Source of the DNA: Desulfatibacillum sp.
GTDB taxonomy: Bacteria; Desulfobacterota; Desulfobacteria; Desulfobacterales; SpSt-501
Assembly (NCBI GenBank): GCA_020725555.1
Contig: DYEU01000004.1
Location: 62,001-126,000 of the forward strand
Length of the DNA: 64,000 nucleotides
Reading direction: 5' to 3'
The translations under genes were made by a program, and so were the position numbers. The notes below the pieces were generated by a model that made no database searches, was not told the DNA's origin, and saw nothing but the letters and a program-made list of their open reading frames with translations. The first letter of the stretch is position 1; each line of letters begins with the position of its first letter. Of the stretch, positions 31,173 through 40,459 are shown in pieces.

Positions 31173-31200
31173 TTGACTTCCGCAACGCGCGGGTTATCAT
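31173..31200 (+). promoter_or_regulatory. sigma-70-type promoter of the 31.2-35.5 kb operon
   Basis: TTGACT (31173-31178), 16-base spacer, TATCAT (31195-31200); each box matches 5 of 6. It lies 52 bases before the first ATG and is one of the best promoter matches in the window. Confidence 0.65.
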
Positions 31201-31252
31201 CCGCCCTGCCGCCAGAGGCCGCGGGTCGTTTGCGAAACATCAGGGATGGGGC

Positions 31253-32509
31253 ATGCCGGCAGCGGGATCGATCGTCCTCATGGGCTCGGGCGAGCTCACC
31301 GCCACCATGGTGGAGGTGCACAAGGAGCGGCTTGCCCGCCTGGGGCCCGAGGCGAGGGCGGTCTTTCTCGACACGCCGGCCGGGTTCCAGCTCAACGCCG
31401 ACCAGATCGCCGCGCGTGCCCGCGACTATTTCCGCCGCCGGGTGGGATGCGCGCTCGAGGTCGTCTCCTGGAAATCCCGCGCGCTGCTCTCCTCGCCGCA
31501 GGGCGAACAGGCGCTCGCGGCCCTCCGCCGCGCCGACTACATCCTGATCGGCCCCGGGAGCCCGACCTACGCCCTGCGCCACTGGCGCGAGACCCCCGTC
31601 CCCGAGATCCTCGCCCGCCGGGTCGCCGCCGGCGCCTGCCTCGTCGCCGCCAGCGCCGCGGCCCTGACCGTGGGCCGCTTCACGCTCCCCGTCTACGAGA
31701 TCTACAAGGTCGGGGAGGAGCCGCGCTGGGAGGAGGGCCTCGACCTGCTCGGCCGCTTCGCGCTGCCGCTCGTCGTCGTTCCGCACTGGAACAACGCCGA
31801 GGGCGGAACGCACGACACGCGCTTCTGCTTCATGGGCGAATCCCGCTTCCGCCTCCTCGAGCGCCTGCTGCCGCCGGGGTGCGCCGTGCTCGGCCTGGAC
31901 GAGCACACGGCCTGCATCGTCGATCTCGCCGCGGGCGAGGCCCGCGTCCGCGGGGCGGGCGGGGTCAGCCTGCGGCGCGGCGAAACCGAGCTCCGCCTGG
32001 CGAGCGGGGCGCGGATCGCGCTGGAGGTCATGGGCGGCCGGGTGGCCGGCGATGCGCCCGCCGCCCCGCCGGGCCCGCGGATCGCAACCGCGAGCCCCCC
32101 CGCCGCCGATGCCTTCTGGTCCCGGGTGCACGGGATCGAGGAGCGCTTCCGGCAGGCCCAGAAACGGACCGATCCGGCCGCCATGGCGGCCGAGGTGCTG
32201 GACCTCGACGCCTTCCTCTGGTCGGCCTTTCAGGACCTCGAAAACCCCGAGGCCCTCGCCCAGGGCCGGGAGCTGCTGCGGGAATGGATCGCCCTTCTCG
32301 GCGCGGCCTGCAGCGCCTGCCCGCGGGCCCGGGAGGAGGAGCTCGCGCCGCTGATCGCCCCCGCGCTCCGGCTGCGCGAGGAGCTGCGCCGGGGCCGGCG
32401 GTGGGCCGAGGCCGATCTGCTGCGGCGGCTGCTCGCGCTTCAGGGAATCGTGGTCGAAGACACGCCGGAGGGGCCCCGCTGGCGCCGCCTCGAGGGACGG
32501 GGCCCGTGA
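31253..32509 (+). CDS. S51/class-I GATase-like protein with cysteinyl-tRNA-synthetase-like C-terminal domain
   Basis: A 418 aa two-part protein. Residues 1-265 resemble peptidase S51/cyanophycinase-like proteins of the type 1 glutamine amidotransferase fold: SIVLMGSGELT at the start, RADYILIGPGSPTYALRHW (93-111), a serine at 134 in VAASAAALTVG where S51 enzymes have GxSAG, and LDEHTACIVD (215-224). Both nucleophile-elbow glycines are Ala, so activity is uncertain. Residues 365-412 closely resemble the C-terminal end of cysteinyl-tRNA synthetases, with LREELRRGRRWAEADLLRR followed by GIVVEDTPEGPRWRR; residues 285-350 are DALR-like. The synthetase catalytic core is absent. First gene of a coupled operon. 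Confidence 0.75.
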   Translation: MPAAGSIVLMGSGELTATMVEVHKERLARLGPEARAVFLDTPAGFQLNADQIAARARDYFRRRVGCALEVVSWKSRALLSSPQGEQALAALRRADYILIGPGSPTYALRHWRETPVPEILARRVAAGACLVAASAAALTVGRFTLPVYEIYKVGEEPRWEEGLDLLGRFALPLVVVPHWNNAEGGTHDTRFCFMGESRFRLLERLLPPGCAVLGLDEHTACIVDLAAGEARVRGAGGVSLRRGETELRLASGARIALEVMGGRVAGDAPAAPPGPRIATASPPAADAFWSRVHGIEERFRQAQKRTDPAAMAAEVLDLDAFLWSAFQDLENPEALAQGRELLREWIALLGAACSACPRAREEELAPLIAPALRLREELRRGRRWAEADLLRRLLALQGIVVEDTPEGPRWRRLEGRGP

Positions 32510-33462
32510 CCCTCCGCGCCCGCCCCGAGCGCCTCGAGTCGCTTCACCGGCTCGGCCTCTCCTTCCCCTCCCCCTTCACGCTGCCCGCGTGGGTCGCAAG
32601 CTGGCGCGACGCCTTCGACCCGGCGTGCCCCCTCTGGGTGCGCTCCTTTCACGACGGCAGCGGCCCGCTCGGCGCCGCAATCCTGCGGATCGCCGGCGGC
32701 CGCGGGGTGTTCGCCGGGGACCCGGAGGTCTGCGACCACCTCGACCTGCTCCCCGTCGCGGGCCGCGAGCCGGAGCTCGGCGCGGCGCTTCTCGCGGCGG
32801 CCCGCGCCGAGGGGCTCCGCGGTCTCGATCTCCACGACCTCCGGCCCGACGCGGTCGTGCTGACGGCACTCGTTCCCGCGGCGCGCAAGGCAGGCCTCGA
32901 GGTCGAACTCCGCGAGCGCGCGGTCCTCTTCGCCATGGACCTTCCCCGCCGCTGGGAGGACTACCTCGCGGGGCTTGGCCCCAAGGAACGCCACGAGGTG
33001 CGCCGCAAGCTCCGGCGCTTCGAGGAGCGCTCCGACGGCCCCCTGCGGCTTATCCCCGGGGGGCCGGAGGCCGCGGCGGCGATCGAGAGCTTTTTTCATC
33101 TCTTTCGCCGCACCCGCCCCGCGAAGGCGGCCTTTCTCACGGAACGCACGGCAGCCTTTTTCCGCCTGCTCGCGCTTCGGCTGCCGGAGTTCCGGCTGGG
33201 GGTGGTCCACGTTGACGGGTCTCCGGCCGCCGCGGTATGCTGTTTTGATTTCGGCCCGACCCGCTATCTTTACAACAGCGCCTACGATGCGGCCTTCGCC
33301 CCCTTGGGGGCGGGCATGGCGTGCAAGATCCTGAGCATCCGCGACGCCGTCGAGCGCGGCATCCCCCGTTACGATTTCCTGAAAGGGGATGAGCCTTACA
33401 AGCGCCGGCTCGGCGGAACGCCCCTGGCCCTCTTCGGATGCCGCATCGAACTCGGAGGCTGA
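32506..33462 (+). CDS. BcsL/CelD-type acetyltransferase (GNAT superfamily)
   Basis: A 318 aa protein beginning at a GTG that overlaps the previous stop (GTGA). The C-terminal half fits the Acetyltransf_6/CelD fold: MDLPRRWEDYLAGLGPKERHEVRRKLRRFE-like residues at about 145-175, then FFHLFRRTRPAKAAFL, GSPAAAVCCFDFG, the substrate-site YNSAYDAAFAPLGAGMACK and YDFLKGDEPYKRRLGG near 290-305. Members transfer acyl groups in envelope or small-molecule pathways. In this operon it stands where a mycothiol-type pathway has an acetyltransferase, though it is not of the MshD family. Confidence 0.8.
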   Translation: MTLRARPERLESLHRLGLSFPSPFTLPAWVASWRDAFDPACPLWVRSFHDGSGPLGAAILRIAGGRGVFAGDPEVCDHLDLLPVAGREPELGAALLAAARAEGLRGLDLHDLRPDAVVLTALVPAARKAGLEVELRERAVLFAMDLPRRWEDYLAGLGPKERHEVRRKLRRFEERSDGPLRLIPGGPEAAAAIESFFHLFRRTRPAKAAFLTERTAAFFRLLALRLPEFRLGVVHVDGSPAAAVCCFDFGPTRYLYNSAYDAAFAPLGAGMACKILSIRDAVERGIPRYDFLKGDEPYKRRLGGTPLALFGCRIELGG

Positions 33463-33477
33463 GCGAGGACTCCGCCC

Positions 33478-34764
33478 GTGCCGCCCGCGCGCCTTTCGAT
33501 CGCCATGGTTTCGCTCCACTCCGGCCCGCTCGGGCCCCTGGGCGCGCGCCGCACGGGGGGGCTCAGCGTCTGCCTGCGCGAGCTCTCGCGCGCGCTGGGC
33601 CGGGCCGGCCACCGCGTCGATCTCTTCGCCCCCGCGGCCGGTGGGGCCGGGGGTGAGGCGTCGATCCCGCTTGCGGACAACGTGCGGCTCCTCCCCGTCG
33701 CCCCCGGGGTCCCCGCCCGCCCGCTCGAGATCCACCGGCAGGCGGAAGGGGTGTGGGAAACGATCGAGCGCCTCCGGCGGCGGCTGGGGACCGGCTACGA
33801 CCTCGTCCACAGCCACTATTGGGCCTCGGGGCGGGCGGCGGAGCTCGCCTGCCGCGCCTGGGGCGCACCCCACGTGGCGACCTTCCACACGCTCGCGGCC
33901 GGCAAACGGCGCCTCCGGGAGGATCGGGCGGAGCTCCTCGTGCGCCTCGCGGCGGAGCGTCGTCTCGCCCGGATTTGCGAGGCGCTGACCGTGCCCTCGC
34001 CGCGCGAGAGAGACCTGCTCACGACCTTCTGCCGCGCCGCCGCCCCGCGCACGGCCGTCGTTCCCTGGGGGGTCGATTTGGAGCGCTTCCGCCCGCTCCC
34101 CCGACGGGAGTCCCGCGCCCGGCTCGGCATCCCCGAGGAGGCCGAGGTCGTGCTCTACGTGGGAAGGCTCGCGCCGGAAAAGGGGTTGAAGCGGCTCCTC
34201 GCCGCGCTCGCCCGCCTCGGAGACCGCGCCCCCCTGCGGCTGATCGTCGTCGGCGGCGACGGGGCGGGCGACCCCCGGCGGCGCCTGCTCGCCGCCTGGG
34301 CCGAAGCCCGCGGCCTGGGCGGCCGGGTCGCCTTCCGCGGCCGGGTCGAGCCGGAGGCGCTCCCGCTGTTTTACAGCGCGGCCGATCTCCTCGCCCTGCC
34401 CTCCTCCTACGAGAGCTTCGGTCTCGTGATCCTCGAGGCCCTCGCCTGCGGCACCCCGGTCGCCGCGACACCCGTCGGTGCGGCGGAAACGCTCCTGCGC
34501 GGCGGCAGGCGGGGCCGTCTCGCCGCCGGCTTCGCCCCGGACGACCTCGCCGCGGCGATCGCCGCGCTTCTCGACACCCATCTCCCCTCGCCGCTCATGG
34601 CGGCGGCGCTGCGCCGCTCGGTGGCGGGCTTCGGCTGGCCGCAGGCGGCCGAGGGGATGCTCGCCGTCTACCGCGCGGTGCTCTCCGGCCAGGAGGCCGC
34701 CCGGGGGCTCGAAGCCGGGGAGTCGGCCTGCTGCGGCTGCGGCCGGGGTCGAGGCCGAAAGTGA
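33478..34764 (+). CDS. GT4-family glycosyltransferase, MshA-like
   Basis: Retaining GT-B glycosyltransferase, 428 aa, starting at GTG. The N-terminus (IAMVSLHSGPLGPLGARRTGG, then LSVCLRELSRAL) has the pattern of MshA and sucrose-phosphate-synthase-like enzymes. YDLVHSHYWASG (107-118), VPWGVDLERFRPL, LYVGRLAPEKGL and the nucleotide-sugar E-x7-E motif at Glu312 and Glu320 (SYESFGLVILEA) complete the family. MshA joins GlcNAc to inositol phosphate, BshA to malate; the acceptor here is unknown. The last 15 residues are Cys/Gly/Arg-rich. It is followed by a PIG-L deacetylase, the usual partner of MshA and BshA. Confidence 0.9.
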   Translation: MPPARLSIAMVSLHSGPLGPLGARRTGGLSVCLRELSRALGRAGHRVDLFAPAAGGAGGEASIPLADNVRLLPVAPGVPARPLEIHRQAEGVWETIERLRRRLGTGYDLVHSHYWASGRAAELACRAWGAPHVATFHTLAAGKRRLREDRAELLVRLAAERRLARICEALTVPSPRERDLLTTFCRAAAPRTAVVPWGVDLERFRPLPRRESRARLGIPEEAEVVLYVGRLAPEKGLKRLLAALARLGDRAPLRLIVVGGDGAGDPRRRLLAAWAEARGLGGRVAFRGRVEPEALPLFYSAADLLALPSSYESFGLVILEALACGTPVAATPVGAAETLLRGGRRGRLAAGFAPDDLAAAIAALLDTHLPSPLMAAALRRSVAGFGWPQAAEGMLAVYRAVLSGQEAARGLEAGESACCGCGRGRGRK

Positions 34765-34775
34765 GGGAGGCCCCC

Positions 34776-35471
34776 GTGAGCGCCCCCGCCGACGTCCTCG
34801 CCATCGCCGCCCACCCGGATGACTGCGAGTTCGGGGCCGCCGGTACGATCGCCCGCTGGGTCCGCGAGGGGAAATCCGTGGTCTACGTCCTCTGCACAAG
34901 CGGCGAGAAGGGCACCAACGACCCGGACCTTACGCCGCCGGCCTTGGCCGCGATCCGCGAGGAGGAACAGCGCGCGGCCTGCGCCGTCCTCGGCGTGCGC
35001 GAGGCGGTGTTCCTGAGGCTTCCCGACCAGGGCCTCGAGGACACCGACGCCTTCCGCCGGCTGCTCGTGCGCCAGATCCGCCGCTTCCGCCCGCGGATCG
35101 TGCTCACCTCGGACCCCTACCGCCGCTACATCTGGCACCGCGACCACCGCATCGTGGGCCAGGTCGTCCTGGATGCCGTCTTCCCTTACGCCCGGGACCG
35201 GCTCGCCTACCCCGAGCTTCTGGCGGAGGGGTACGCCCCGCACAAGGTGCGCGAGCTCTATTTCTGGGGGGCCGAGGAGATCAACTGCCGGGTGGACGTC
35301 ACGGCAACCTTCGAGATCAAGATCGCGGCCCTTCGCTGCCACAAGAGCCAGCTGCGGGAATTCTCCCGCGGCGACCCGGTCGCCTGGCTGCGGGAACGCT
35401 GCCGCGAGATGGCGGCCGGGGAGTCCTACGGGCTGGCCGAGGGGTTTCACCGCGTCGAGGCGCCGCCGTGA
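34776..35471 (+). CDS. PIG-L/LmbE-family deacetylase (MshB/BshB-like)
   Basis: Zinc-dependent N-acetylglucosaminide deacetylase-type protein, 231 aa. Metal and catalytic motifs are AAHPDD (His13, Asp15, Asp16) and HRDHRIVGQ with His124; TSGEKGTNDPD and SDPYRRY also fit. The family removes acetate from GlcNAc conjugates, as in mycothiol, bacillithiol and GPI synthesis. I use the GTG with GAGGGAGG 5 bases upstream; an alternative GTG 15 bases earlier overlaps the glycosyltransferase stop. It converges with and overlaps the histidine phosphatase gene by 25 bases. Confidence 0.9.
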   Translation: MSAPADVLAIAAHPDDCEFGAAGTIARWVREGKSVVYVLCTSGEKGTNDPDLTPPALAAIREEEQRAACAVLGVREAVFLRLPDQGLEDTDAFRRLLVRQIRRFRPRIVLTSDPYRRYIWHRDHRIVGQVVLDAVFPYARDRLAYPELLAEGYAPHKVRELYFWGAEEINCRVDVTATFEIKIAALRCHKSQLREFSRGDPVAWLRERCREMAAGESYGLAEGFHRVEAPP

Positions 35472-36109
35472 GGCGGCGCGGCCTCCGCGCCTCCCCCCGG
35501 GAGAAAGGCGATCTCCGCGGGCCGCTTTGGCCACCCCGGGGGGAGAACCAGGCGCACGACGGCGCCGGTCGGGGGGTAGCCGCCGCCTCCCGGGATCGCA
35601 AGGCGCGTCTTGTTCTCGGGGCGAAGCTCCCGCCGCATCGCCCAGAGCAGCGTGAAGGCGATCACATCGCCGTGGGTCACCGCGGCCACCGCTTCGCCCG
35701 CGTGCCGCCGCCGGAGGCGCTCGAGAAAACGCACCATGCGCCGGACGAGATCCTGCGGCTGTTCCCAGGGCGGGCCCTCGCCGGTGTAGAAGTCGTCGCG
35801 CCGCCCCGCGAGCATGGAAAGCGGCTCGCCCTCGAAGCGCGTGCGCACCTCGTCGAGCAGCCGCGAGGTGCGGACGGCGAGACCCGGGTGAAGGGCGGCG
35901 ATCGCGGCCGCGGTCTGCCGCGCCCTGAGCCGCGGGCTCGTGTAGACCGCCGCAAGCTTGGCCCCGGCGAGGATCCCCGCCGCCCGGGCCGCCTCCTCGC
36001 GGCCGCGCGCGCTCAGCGGGAAGCGGGGCAGCCGGCCGTAGAGGACGCCCCGGGGGTTGTGGACGTGCCCGTGGCGGACGAGAAACACCGTCGGGGGCGG
36101 AGGCCTCAT
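35447..36109 (-). CDS. histidine phosphatase family protein (phosphoglycerate-mutase-like)
   Basis: A 220 aa phosphatase of the RHG family. The catalytic FLVRHGHVHN (residues 9-18), the acid/base region and the second histidine in AVTHGDVIAF (about 143-152) are present, so activity is expected. Substrate not predictable; relatives act on phosphosugars and cobalamin or inositol phosphates. Its ATG overlaps the upstream alpha/beta hydrolase stop by 4 bases, and its 3' end overlaps the convergent deacetylase gene. Confidence 0.9.
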   Translation of the reverse strand: MRPPPPTVFLVRHGHVHNPRGVLYGRLPRFPLSARGREEAARAAGILAGAKLAAVYTSPRLRARQTAAAIAALHPGLAVRTSRLLDEVRTRFEGEPLSMLAGRRDDFYTGEGPPWEQPQDLVRRMVRFLERLRRRHAGEAVAAVTHGDVIAFTLLWAMRRELRPENKTRLAIPGGGGYPPTGAVVRLVLPPGWPKRPAEIAFLPGGGAEAAPPHGGASTR

Positions 36110-37782: not shown

Positions 37783-38217
37783 GTGAGTTCGGTTCGGCGC
37801 ATCGGGCTCGTCGCCCACGACGAGCGCAAAAAAGACCTTCTGGAATGGGTCCGCTTCAACCGCGAGACCCTCTCGCGGCATCGCCTCTGGGCCACGGGGA
37901 CGACCGGGAGGATCCTCGCCGAAGCCTGCGGCCTGGAGATCCGCCTGCTCAAGAGCGGCCCGCTCGGGGGGGACCAGCAGCTCGGGGCGATGATCGCCTC
38001 CGGCGAACTCGACGTCCTCATCTTTTTCTGGGACCCGATGACCGCCCAACCGCACGACGTGGACGTGAAGGCCCTGTTGCGGATGGCCGTCCTCTACAAC
38101 GTCGCCGTCGCCTGCAACCGCGCGACGGCCGACCACCTCATCTCGAGCGACCTCTTTCACCGCGGCCACCGCCCGGCGGCGGGTGAGGCGGCAGGCAGCC
38201 CGGGGGCCATGGGGTGA
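37783..38217 (+). CDS. mgsA: methylglyoxal synthase
   Basis: Converts dihydroxyacetone phosphate to methylglyoxal and phosphate, a bypass of lower glycolysis under phosphate limitation. The 144 aa chain aligns by eye along the whole E. coli enzyme: GLVAHDERK (catalytic His), LWATGTTG phosphate loop, KSGPLGGDQQLGAMI with the catalytic aspartate, DVLIFFWDPMTAQPHDVDVKALLR and NRATADHLI. The last 15 residues diverge. It starts at GTG with AGGAGGA upstream. Confidence 0.96.
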   Translation: MSSVRRIGLVAHDERKKDLLEWVRFNRETLSRHRLWATGTTGRILAEACGLEIRLLKSGPLGGDQQLGAMIASGELDVLIFFWDPMTAQPHDVDVKALLRMAVLYNVAVACNRATADHLISSDLFHRGHRPAAGEAAGSPGAMG

Positions 38218-38860: not shown

Positions 38861-40459
38861 ATGACCGCCATCCGCGTCCTTCTCGGCCTCACCCCCTTCG
38901 CCTTCGGGGCCTCGATCCTGTGGCTCGGCCAGGACATCTCCTGGGACCTGAGAAACTACCACGTCTACAACCCGTTCGCCTTTCTCTTCGACCGCATGGG
39001 GCACGACGTGGCCGTCGCCCACGTGGCCACCTACTACAACCCCCTCCTTTACCTCCCCTTTTACCACGCCGTCGTCGGCCTGCCGCCGAAGGCGGTCGGC
39101 TTTCTGCTCGGCTTCCTGCCCGGCCTGAACGCCTGGCTCATCTACGCCATCACCCGCCGGGCGGTCGACCCCGGGGACTCCGCCCGGGCCCGCTGGTACT
39201 GTTTCGCGCTGACCGCGGCGGCGATGCTCGGCATGATTCACCTCGCCGAGATCGGCACGAGCTTCGGCGACACCGTGGTGAGCCTCCCGGTGCTCGCGGC
39301 GGTCTTCCTGCTCGTCCGTTTCCCGGAGCGGCTCGGCGGCCCGCTCCGCGGCGGCGCTTCGGTCGTGCTTGCCGCGGGCGTGCTCGCGGGCTCGGCCTGC
39401 GGGGTGAAGCTCCCCTTCGCCATCTACTGCGTGGGGCTCTGCGCGGCGATCCTCGCCTTCCGCCTGCCCTGGCGCAGGCGCCTTGCGCTCGCCGTTCTCT
39501 TCGGCCTGGGGGTCCTCGTCGGGATCGCCGCAACCGGCGGTTTTTGGATGCTCGCCATGTGGCGGCGCTTCCAGAACCCCGTGTTCCCCTATTTCAACGA
39601 GTGGTTCCGCTCCCCCTGGGGGGCCGAGGGCTCCTACCGCGACGAGCGCTTCATCCCGCAGGGGCCGGCGATGTGGCTGCTCTTCCCCTTCTGGTTCAAC
39701 GTGGAGCCGACGCGCGTGGGCGAGGTGGGCTTCCGCGACCTTCGCTTTCCGCTCCTCTACGTGCTGCTGCTCGCGGCCCTGATCGGCGGGGCTTGCCGCC
39801 TCCGCCGCGGCGGGAGGACCGCCGCGGCGGAGGCTTCGCCCCCCGCGGCCGACGGGTTCCTCATCGTCTTCCTCGTCGTTTCTTTTCTCCTGTGGATGAA
39901 GCTCTTTTCCGTCTACCGCTACGCGATCGTCTGCGAGTATCTCGCCCCGCTCACCGCCCATGCCCTTCTCGGCCGGCTGATCCGCAACCCGCGCCGCCTC
40001 AAGCAGGCCGCGCTCGCCGCGGCCGCCTTCGTCGTTCTCACCCTCGATCCCGGCCACTGGGGCCGGAGGCCCTGGACGGCGGACTACTTCGACATCGCCC
40101 TGCCGCCGCTAGCCGCCGAGCGCCGGGCGATCGTGCTCGTGACCGGCCACGACCCGGTCGGCTACCTGATCCCCTCCTTTCCCGCCGAGGCCCGCTTTCT
40201 GCGCATCCAGGGCTTCGTGACCGGGCCCTCGCCGCGGCTGAACGAGACCGACCGCATGATGATGCGCGCCGTCGCGGAACATTCGGGGCCGCTTCTTCTG
40301 CTCTACCGCATCTACGAGGAGTGGCATGCGCTCCAGGCGCTCGAGTTCTACGGGCTCGAGCTCGAGCGCGACTCCTGCCAGGGCTTCGTCCCCGGCATCG
40401 AACCCCAGCCGGAGCACCCCTTCTTTCTGTGCCGGGTGAGCCGGCGGGCGACCCACTGA
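38861..40459 (+). CDS. polytopic membrane protein, GT-C glycosyltransferase-like
   Basis: A 532 aa protein with about ten hydrophobic helices. After the first helix an acidic loop (LGQDISWDLRNYHVYNPF) is placed like the Asp-bearing first periplasmic loop of GT-C enzymes, which use lipid-linked sugars. YYNPLLYLPFYH and FRDLRFPLLYVLLL further support this, as does the soluble C-terminal third. No precise family recognised. It is 11 bases upstream of a DPM1-like GT2 gene, which could supply the polyprenyl-phosphate sugar donor. Confidence 0.75.
   Translation: MTAIRVLLGLTPFAFGASILWLGQDISWDLRNYHVYNPFAFLFDRMGHDVAVAHVATYYNPLLYLPFYHAVVGLPPKAVGFLLGFLPGLNAWLIYAITRRAVDPGDSARARWYCFALTAAAMLGMIHLAEIGTSFGDTVVSLPVLAAVFLLVRFPERLGGPLRGGASVVLAAGVLAGSACGVKLPFAIYCVGLCAAILAFRLPWRRRLALAVLFGLGVLVGIAATGGFWMLAMWRRFQNPVFPYFNEWFRSPWGAEGSYRDERFIPQGPAMWLLFPFWFNVEPTRVGEVGFRDLRFPLLYVLLLAALIGGACRLRRGGRTAAAEASPPAADGFLIVFLVVSFLLWMKLFSVYRYAIVCEYLAPLTAHALLGRLIRNPRRLKQAALAAAAFVVLTLDPGHWGRRPWTADYFDIALPPLAAERRAIVLVTGHDPVGYLIPSFPAEARFLRIQGFVTGPSPRLNETDRMMMRAVAEHSGPLLLLYRIYEEWHALQALEFYGLELERDSCQGFVPGIEPQPEHPFFLCRVSRRATH

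Follow-up and report, generated by a model that had tools for sequence, protein, structure and literature searches.

What would a bacterium outside the Actinobacteria make with an operon that combines an MshA-like glycosyltransferase and a PIG-L deacetylase with two proteins that point to an aminoacyl-tRNA donor? The question is raised by four adjacent genes in a Desulfatibacillum sp. window (the whole 64,000-nucleotide stretch of DNA that was analysed, part of contig C28 in a genome of 35 contigs and 3.59 Mb). The four-gene operon was confirmed as real and conserved, and we assign a probability of roughly 0.5 to the reading that it is the core of a mycothiol-like pathway outside the Actinobacteria, in Desulfobacterota, Nitrospirota and Chloroflexi, which would make a cysteinyl-glucosaminyl-polyol (Cys-GlcN-polyol) thiol from Cys-tRNA. 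The genes, and the two domains of the first protein, are listed below, with cysteinyl-tRNA synthetase abbreviated as CysRS and glycosyltransferase family 4 as GT4.

31253..32509, + strand: gene 1, an S51-fold domain followed by a CysRS DALR/anticodon-binding end, 418 amino acids (P0001), ATG start
31253..32032, + strand: Peptidase_S51-like domain of gene 1, residues 1-260, from Pfam, alignment and VIA fold comparison
32126..32488, + strand: C-terminal ~120 residues of gene 1, homologous to E. coli CysRS 336-461 (tRNA-Cys anticodon binding), from profile search and kept contact residues
32506..33462, + strand: gene 2, PF13480, FemX/Sbb17-type double-GNAT fold, predicted aminoacyl-tRNA-dependent transferase, 318 amino acids (P0002), GTG start
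33478..34764, + strand: gene 3, MshA-like GT4 glycosyltransferase, 428 amino acids (P0003), GTG start
34761..35471, + strand: gene 4, PIG-L N-deacetylase, BshB1-like, 236 amino acids (P0004), GTG start

The original prediction, drawn from the letters of this DNA, had described a four-gene operon with GTGA-type coupling, and this holds: all four genes lie on the + strand, and 4-base GTGA overlaps join the start of gene 2 to the stop of gene 1 and the start of gene 4 to the stop of gene 3. An in-frame GTG at 34776 is an alternative start for gene 4.

Gene 1 joins a tRNA anticodon-reading domain to a hydrolase fold. Its CysRS-like end had been recognized from the start; the other domain had been missed, and covers residues 8-221 as a Pfam match to PF03575 Peptidase_S51 (30.1 bits, cut-off 23.9). 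Residues 371-411 of the window protein alone scored 21.2 bits against the Pfam model CysS_C, slightly below the cut-off of 23. A family profile of 45 sequences (alignment A1, P0001 plus 44 of 70 complete gene 1 proteins) matched five CysRS C-termini among solved structures at E values from 4e-12 to 3.5e-4, E. coli CysRS 336-461 (1li5/1u0b) at 7.7e-11 and the S51-like protein 6nqc at 1.4e-11. An AF2 model (pLDDT 84.7, pTM 0.64) gave VIA Z scores of 26.6 to 6nqc, 24.9 to cyanophycinase 3en0 and 20.2 to PepE 1fy2. Residues 289-413 matched the E. coli CysRS-tRNA-Cys complex 1u0b with Z 8.4 over 117 residues, a fold match that is weak on its own because the root-mean-square deviation (rmsd) is 11.2.

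The residues that read the anticodon are kept. In E. coli CysRS, R427, W432 and D436 contact G34 and R423 belongs to a water network, according to an excerpt of PMC12684709. The gene 1 equivalents of R423, R427, W432 and D436 are R375 (45/45 aligned sequences), R379 (44/45), W384 (40/45, with F or Y in the other five) and D388 (45/45); D403, aligned with CysRS D451, is also invariant (45/45), while the majority of the intervening positions vary widely. In three short variants (L164, L166 and L169) the helical bundle is gone, by sequence, and the small anticodon-reading unit is retained, with L164 and L169 exceeding the CysS_C cut-off. The S51 domain likewise has three invariant residues, S134, E149 and H178 (45/45). 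S134 and H178 align with the Ser and His of PepE that we take to be catalytic, and E149 is our guess for the third catalytic residue, one alignment column off PepE Asp135; the motif S-A-A stands where PepE has S-A-G. From the conserved S51 residues together with the kept G34 contacts, gene 1 therefore appears to encode an active enzyme of the S51 type that recognizes tRNA-Cys. It was rejected as an MshC, as had already been argued, since the class I catalytic core is absent. The same genome separately encodes a CysRS that has its own CysS_C (L202 3156-4544).

Several further arrangements of S51-like and CysRS-like proteins were seen. A second, stand-alone S51-like gene, which matches the gene 1 profile weakly and has an SAGA elbow, adjoins gene 1 at L175 12384-13103 (-) and L176 2597-3382 (+). 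Gene 1 homologues that begin with GSGETAPTM occur in Dormibacteraeota (L099 2257-3522, in a genome that encodes an MshC-like protein) and Acidimicrobiaceae (L102 37-1365); gene 2 was not found in either genome. The window's genome also carries a CysM-like cysteine synthase fused to a CysRS-like protein (L199 3786-6068 (-), from G000:C21), the CysRS-like part of which seems, by eye, to be without the HIGH and KMSKS motifs. L200 4576-6897 (-) was recorded along with it. A similar protein occurs in G045, and in the other gene-1 Desulfobacterota genomes of the MshC/cysS comparison described below a CysRS-type match lies within a frame of at least 760 amino acids. At L201 4005-6191 (+), from G089:C1, a CysRS catalytic domain is fused to a GT2 glycosyltransferase.

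Gene 2 belongs to PF13480 (Acetyltransf_6, Pfam). Its description as an acetyltransferase of another fold than MshD was right about the difference in fold and overlooked the likeness to FemX. In VIA comparisons of the AF2 model (pLDDT 96.3, pTM 0.91), the top 23 matches had Z 16.8-21.4 and rmsd 3.4-3.9 at 10-18% sequence identity; 22 of them are aminoacyl-tRNA-dependent transferases or their homologues (Sbb17/Sba18, FemX, FemA and MprF-type), and the remaining one, 2hqy, is a protein of unknown function. Z was 21.4 to Sbb17 and 18.9-20.9 to FemX. The GNATs of the coenzyme A type followed from Z 14.6 downward (rmsd 6.8), with MshD at 13.6 (2c27) and 12.8. For gene 2, the reading as an MshD-like acetyltransferase was set aside on the predicted fold only. 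In the family (alignment A2, P0002 plus 42 of 53 gene 2 proteins) K299, in a Y-K motif, is invariant (43/43) and may be the equivalent of FemX K305, a guess from that motif. Streptothrisamine is an amino-sugar compound. The available text of PMC12945691 describes FemX K305 and reports Orf11, a FemX-like GNAT-fold enzyme that uses Gly-tRNA on streptothrisamine. We predict from the model that gene 2 is an aminoacyl-tRNA-dependent transferase; given the S51 and tRNA-Cys domains of gene 1 and the FemX/Sbb17 likeness of gene 2, the chemistry is therefore probably tRNA-dependent.

Genes 3 and 4 proved to be the MshA-like GT4 enzyme and the PIG-L deacetylase that they had been called. The best NCBIfam model for gene 3 is MshA (TIGR03449) at 244.6 bits, below the cut-off of 462.5, followed at a distance by EpsE (92.8 bits) and BshA (78.9 bits, cut-off 273.7). 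All 27 members of its family (alignment A3, P0003 plus 26 of 49 gene 3 proteins) match the MshA model, with a best E of 7e-108 and 5e-40 for the runner-up NCBIfam model, and the gene 3 profile matches solved MshA 3c4q at E 7e-111. Y114, T138 and R156 are present in 27/27 and align with MshA Y110, T134 and R154, which, with K78 and N25, we take to be phosphate-binding residues, placed by counting along the profile alignment. For gene 4 the best NCBIfam model is BshB1 (118.3 bits, below the cut-off of 182.5), which also gives the best E across the family; H18, D20, D21, H126, D128 and H129 are conserved in 24/24 sequences (alignment A4, P0004 plus 23 of 38 gene 4 proteins).

GT4, PIG-L and PF13480 proteins also occur in operons for envelope polysaccharides, and further glycosyltransferase-like genes, read by eye, begin at 38861, ~3.4 kb downstream of gene 4. 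We nevertheless consider an envelope-polysaccharide operon highly improbable. Grouping of the GT4 enzyme with envelope transferases was rejected, MshA being by far its best NCBIfam model, and the recurrent neighbours that were identified (only part of the neighbour clusters is annotated, and the rest may include envelope genes) are inositol-phosphate synthase (Ino1), phosphatases, a metallo-β-lactamase (MBL) protein, oxidoreductases and a fusion of glutaredoxin (Grx) with thioredoxin reductase (TrxR).

Conservation of the four-gene neighbourhood, which the original prediction had proposed as a check, was measured in 77 gene-1 loci from the best 80 of 86 stretches. Nine loci from Chloroflexi, Dormibacteraeota and Acidimicrobiaceae were set apart; of the other 68, the 41 with at least 8 kb downstream of gene 1 made up the main count, and the 27 with less than 8 kb were excluded from it. 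Score thresholds for the neighbour-family and locus counts were the analyst's choice. Gene 2 was present in 36 of the 41 loci, gene 3 in 37, gene 4 in 32 and all four genes in 30, with the same order and strand in 27 of the 30 by script; L090, one that the script placed out of order, has the usual order by tblastn. Over all 77 loci the corresponding counts are 56, 54, 40 and 38. Desulfatitalea alkaliphila M08but (L089), named as a strain rather than as a metagenome-assembled genome, has the four genes in a row.

Genes 1 and 2 also co-occur at the level of genomes. Among 58 relatives, long gene 1 matches were found in 13 and gene 2 matches of at least 360 bits in 14, with all 13 shared; the additional genome, G036, is 65% complete. 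These counts set aside 10 of 23 genomes with a gene 1 match, as matches to the CysRS end only, and 4 of 18 with a gene 2 match (G019, G025, G040 and G048), as weak. Of 297 genomes from the phylum, 33 carried gene 1, 46 gene 2 (at least 200 bits) and 30 both (Fisher 3.6e-26, ignoring relatedness).

The cysteine ligases of the known pathways were sought, their absence having been another of the proposed checks. BshC (PF10079) was found in 0/58 genomes, with positive controls in B. subtilis, Thermus and Deinobacterium, and a bacillithiol pathway was rejected on this result. MshC (TIGR03447) scored above cut-off in 0/25 gene-1 genome handles (24 distinct, G068 being the same as G004) and in 0/16 gene-2-only genomes; in the control for this test it was above cut-off in 1/14.

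The stretch around the operon adds two features:

31173..31200, + strand: sigma-70-like promoter match TTGACT-N16-TATCAT, 10/12 matches, by consensus only
35447..36109, - strand: histidine phosphatase (PF00300), convergent, candidate for a dephosphorylation step, a role that is inferred only

The promoter match is one of three in the scanned stretch (shuffle mean 0.0), and a consensus match is not proof of function. Relatives of the histidine phosphatase occur in 12/77 loci and HAD phosphatases in 11/77. One representative of each neighbour family (two for HAD) was scanned against NCBIfam or Pfam. In a set of 79 loci with genes 2 and 3, in which one genome can appear twice, Ino1 of two divergent types is present in 23, and the scanned Ino1 of the first type (L066) is nearest to the mycothiol_INO1 model (417 bits, cut-off 638). 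At L176 a single strand carries, in order, an S51 paralogue, gene 1, ThuA-GFO, GFO, genes 2, 3 and 4, Ino1 and a HAD phosphatase; the cluster of L175 has Ino1 and a histidine phosphatase in convergent orientation. Ino1 adjoins gene 3 in L173, L174, L186, L188, L189, L190, L192 and L165. The first six of these belong to one family of the phylum in which Ino1 adjoins the pair gene 3-gene 2 and a search at E 1e-30 detected no gene 1; this may be a related pathway that does without it. The Ino1 neighbours suggest that an inositol phosphate is the glycosyl acceptor, and the GT4 enzyme, Ino1, the phosphatases and the PIG-L protein together point to an acceptor of the GlcN-inositol type.

Two GFO/IDH/MocA oxidoreductase genes are each present in 28/77 loci, both in 27/77, and may tailor the polyol; the pair usually lies between genes 1 and 2 (for example L048 11382-14172 (+)), and the first has a weak ThuA-like N-terminus. 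Such frequent oxidoreductases would fit a product other than a thiol: the same enzyme classes would use a different amino acid to make an aminoacylated glucosaminide that serves as glycolipid, osmolyte or secreted compound. Fold relatives of gene 2 do use other aminoacyl-tRNAs on sugars, peptidoglycan precursors and lipids (in part from the available text of PMC12945691). Set against such a product are the tRNA-Cys anticodon contacts kept in gene 1 and, among the neighbours, a mycoredoxin-like protein with TrxR (3/77 loci) and glyoxalase-II-like MBL proteins (13/77), and we regard it as decidedly unlikely. The Grx part of the scanned Grx-TrxR fusion (L036) is nearest to the mycoredoxin model (82.8 bits, cut-off 89.5).

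Two neighbouring genes of other kinds were recorded. A methylglyoxal synthase (201 bits, cut-off 84) is encoded at 37783-38217 (+) of the window, ~2.3 kb past the end of gene 4; thiol-dependent detoxification commonly acts on methylglyoxal. In one family, two loci have a radical SAM/SPASM protein next to gene 2, L180 7293-8462 (-) and L195 4707-5837 (+, by sequence start).

For the proposed pathway, we infer substrates, amino acid, tRNA dependence, S51 reaction and product from the domain identities, conservation, co-occurrence, conserved sites and predicted folds described above. Genes 1 and 2 point to an aminoacyl-tRNA donor, and the anticodon residues of gene 1, read from sequence, point to cysteine. 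The pathway would open with the MshA-like GT4 enzyme attaching N-acetylglucosamine to a polyol phosphate, with inositol-1-phosphate the likeliest. The phosphate would be removed by a HAD-type or histidine phosphatase encoded nearby, and the PIG-L protein would take off the N-acetyl group and free the amine. To that amine gene 2 would then transfer the amino acid of a charged tRNA, most probably cysteine. Gene 1 would recognize tRNA-Cys through its CysRS anticodon-binding end. Two roles are proposed for its S51 Ser-His site, which would act on the cysteinyl group: it may pass the group on, through an acyl-enzyme, to gene 2 or the sugar, or it may hydrolyse aminoacyl products that are wrong or idle. 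In this way a Cys-GlcN-polyol thiol would be formed without the ATP-dependent ligases MshC or BshC.

We put at slightly less than an even chance the wider proposal, that cysteinyl-glucosaminide thiols can be made by a route other than those of MshC and BshC, a third one in which a FemX-type transferase and an S51/CysRS-anticodon protein use Cys-tRNA, and that its product is a mycothiol-like main thiol in parts of the Desulfobacterota, Nitrospirota and Chloroflexi. The interpretation offered originally, an undescribed low-molecular-weight (LMW) thiol or an amino-acid-decorated glucosaminide, is partly supported: it survived the checks that were run and remains a prediction.

A number of observations weigh against the proposed thiol pathway, and those that concern the acceptor come first. 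Among solved structures the gene 3 profile fits sucrose-phosphate synthase 6kih nearly as well as MshA (E 3.5e-106), so that the GT4 check, which had placed the enzyme nearest MshA rather than envelope transferases, leaves this second relative almost as near. The position of MshA N25 is S in 25/27 gene 3 proteins, and that of K78 is K in 20/27, but P in the window's protein. The acceptor may therefore not be inositol-1-phosphate. Gene 4 is closer to BshB1 than to MshB (118 vs 61 bits). Enrichment of Ino1 is modest, at 11/14 carriers of gene 1 or 2 versus 14/44 other genomes (p 0.004); no match was obtained in G002, G003 and G008 in the Ino1 search of the 13 gene-1 relatives. For the supply of inositol-1-phosphate, Ino1 is present in the window's own genome, on a different contig (G000:C33:42914-44134). 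The Grx-TrxR fusion is a neighbour in only 3/77 loci.

Other observations concern the donor side. No sequence match links gene 2 to any solved FemX, and a sequence search for its solved relatives returned none (best match a DNA ligase, E 0.23); the FemX fold may be common to PF13480 proteins irrespective of the donor they use. The highest MshC scores below the cut-off came from two genomes: a G060 protein prefers the MshC model over cysS (373 vs 322 bits), one in G065 scores 393 bits with MshC and 394 with cysS, and neither has a CysS_C end in Pfam; judged by these scores, MshC-like proteins may therefore exist in these two genomes, both outside the Desulfobacterota.

Distribution is uneven outside the main set. 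None of the nine Chloroflexi, Dormibacteraeota and Acidimicrobiaceae loci has genes 2-4 close to gene 1 in the examined DNA. All seven Chloroflexi genomes with an unlinked gene 1 carry gene 2 elsewhere, with gene 3 beside it in four and gene 4 following in one (L133); gene 2 loci L155-L157 have no gene 3 neighbour, and L157 begins at a contig end. No gene 2 turned up in the genomes from Dormibacteraeota and Acidimicrobiaceae, and G060 and G063 are the genomes with a gene 1 homologue and no gene 2. A close gene 4 (at least 160 bits) is present in 6/9 non-Desulfobacterota genomes and missing from G058, G059 and G061 (77-83 bits only). The nine loci without genes 2-4 near gene 1, and gene 1 without gene 2 in G060 and G063, would fit a gene 1 that is a quality-control hydrolase for tRNA-Cys, for example a deacylase, and just a frequent neighbour of genes 2-4, whose product would then be unrelated to cysteine. 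The co-occurrence of genes 1 and 2 is strong even where they are unlinked, however, and includes 30/33 gene 1 genomes, and we hold this explanation to be very unlikely.

Gene 2 without gene 1 was found in 16/46 genomes, compared with gene 1 without gene 2 in 3/33. This asymmetry also weighs against the pathway as drawn; it suggests that the core transfer step is more likely the work of gene 2, with gene 1 as a partner specific for tRNA-Cys. It bears further on a one-to-one analogue of mycothiol synthesis, in which the four genes map to MshA-D. There Ser134 of gene 1 would form an acyl-enzyme from Cys-tRNA and cysteinylate the sugar amine in place of MshC, and gene 2 would then acylate or aminoacylate the cysteine in place of MshD. 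PepE-type enzymes form aminoacyl-enzyme intermediates, and gene 1 has its three invariant S51 residues in a PepE/cyanophycinase fold fused to the tRNA-Cys anticodon domain. The predicted fold of gene 2 is of the FemX rather than the MshD type, though, and its occurrence without gene 1 makes gene 2 look like the core enzyme and gene 1 the accessory one; we consider the one-to-one analogue unlikely.

If the proposed thiol pathway is correct, it predicts the main thiol of sulfur-cycling and other lineages, and provides a gene marker for finding that thiol together with a tRNA-dependent step in the synthesis of a redox cofactor. According to an excerpt of PMC6282198, many prokaryotes have no identified LMW thiol and, in a genome survey, complete mshA-D sets were confined to Actinobacteria. 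The available text of PMC2922099 discusses MshC and FemX-type ligases and does not describe the operon. Among the papers listed in searches of the open-licence literature, we found no prior description of the operon, nor of a tRNA anticodon-reading domain paired with a hydrolase fold.

Compared with known systems, the operon shares a GT4 enzyme and a BshB1-like PIG-L protein with bacillithiol synthesis (BshA-BshC), and differs from it in that BshC was not found in the 58 genomes and that the GT4 enzyme is far from BshA (78.9 bits, against 244.6 for MshA). Gene 1 resembles Peptidase S51 enzymes (PepE, cyanophycinase) in its N-terminal fold and aligned Ser and His, and departs from them in its fusion to a CysRS anticodon-binding end and in having S-A-A for the S-A-G of PepE. 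With the C-terminal domain of CysRS it shares ~120 residues that include the G34 contacts; unlike CysRS it has no catalytic domain, and the genome has a separate CysRS. Gene 2 has the double-GNAT fold of FemXAB, Orf11-Sbb17 and MprF (Z up to 21.4 for the predicted model), among which Orf11 acts on streptothrisamine, but only 10-18% identity to them, and it is linked to an MshA-like GT4 enzyme and a PIG-L protein. The operon parallels mycothiol synthesis (MshA-MshD and Ino1, in Actinobacteria) in the MshA-like GT4 enzyme with matching phosphate-binding positions, the PIG-L deacetylase, the Ino1 gene that some genomes have next to the cluster (mycothiol INO1 being nearest to the one scanned) and the mycoredoxin-like neighbour in 3/77 loci. 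In contrast to mycothiol synthesis, MshC is not above cut-off, the PIG-L protein is nearer BshB1, the operon lies outside the Actinobacteria, and the places of MshC and MshD are taken by an S51 protein, predicted to bind tRNA-Cys, and a FemX-type transferase.

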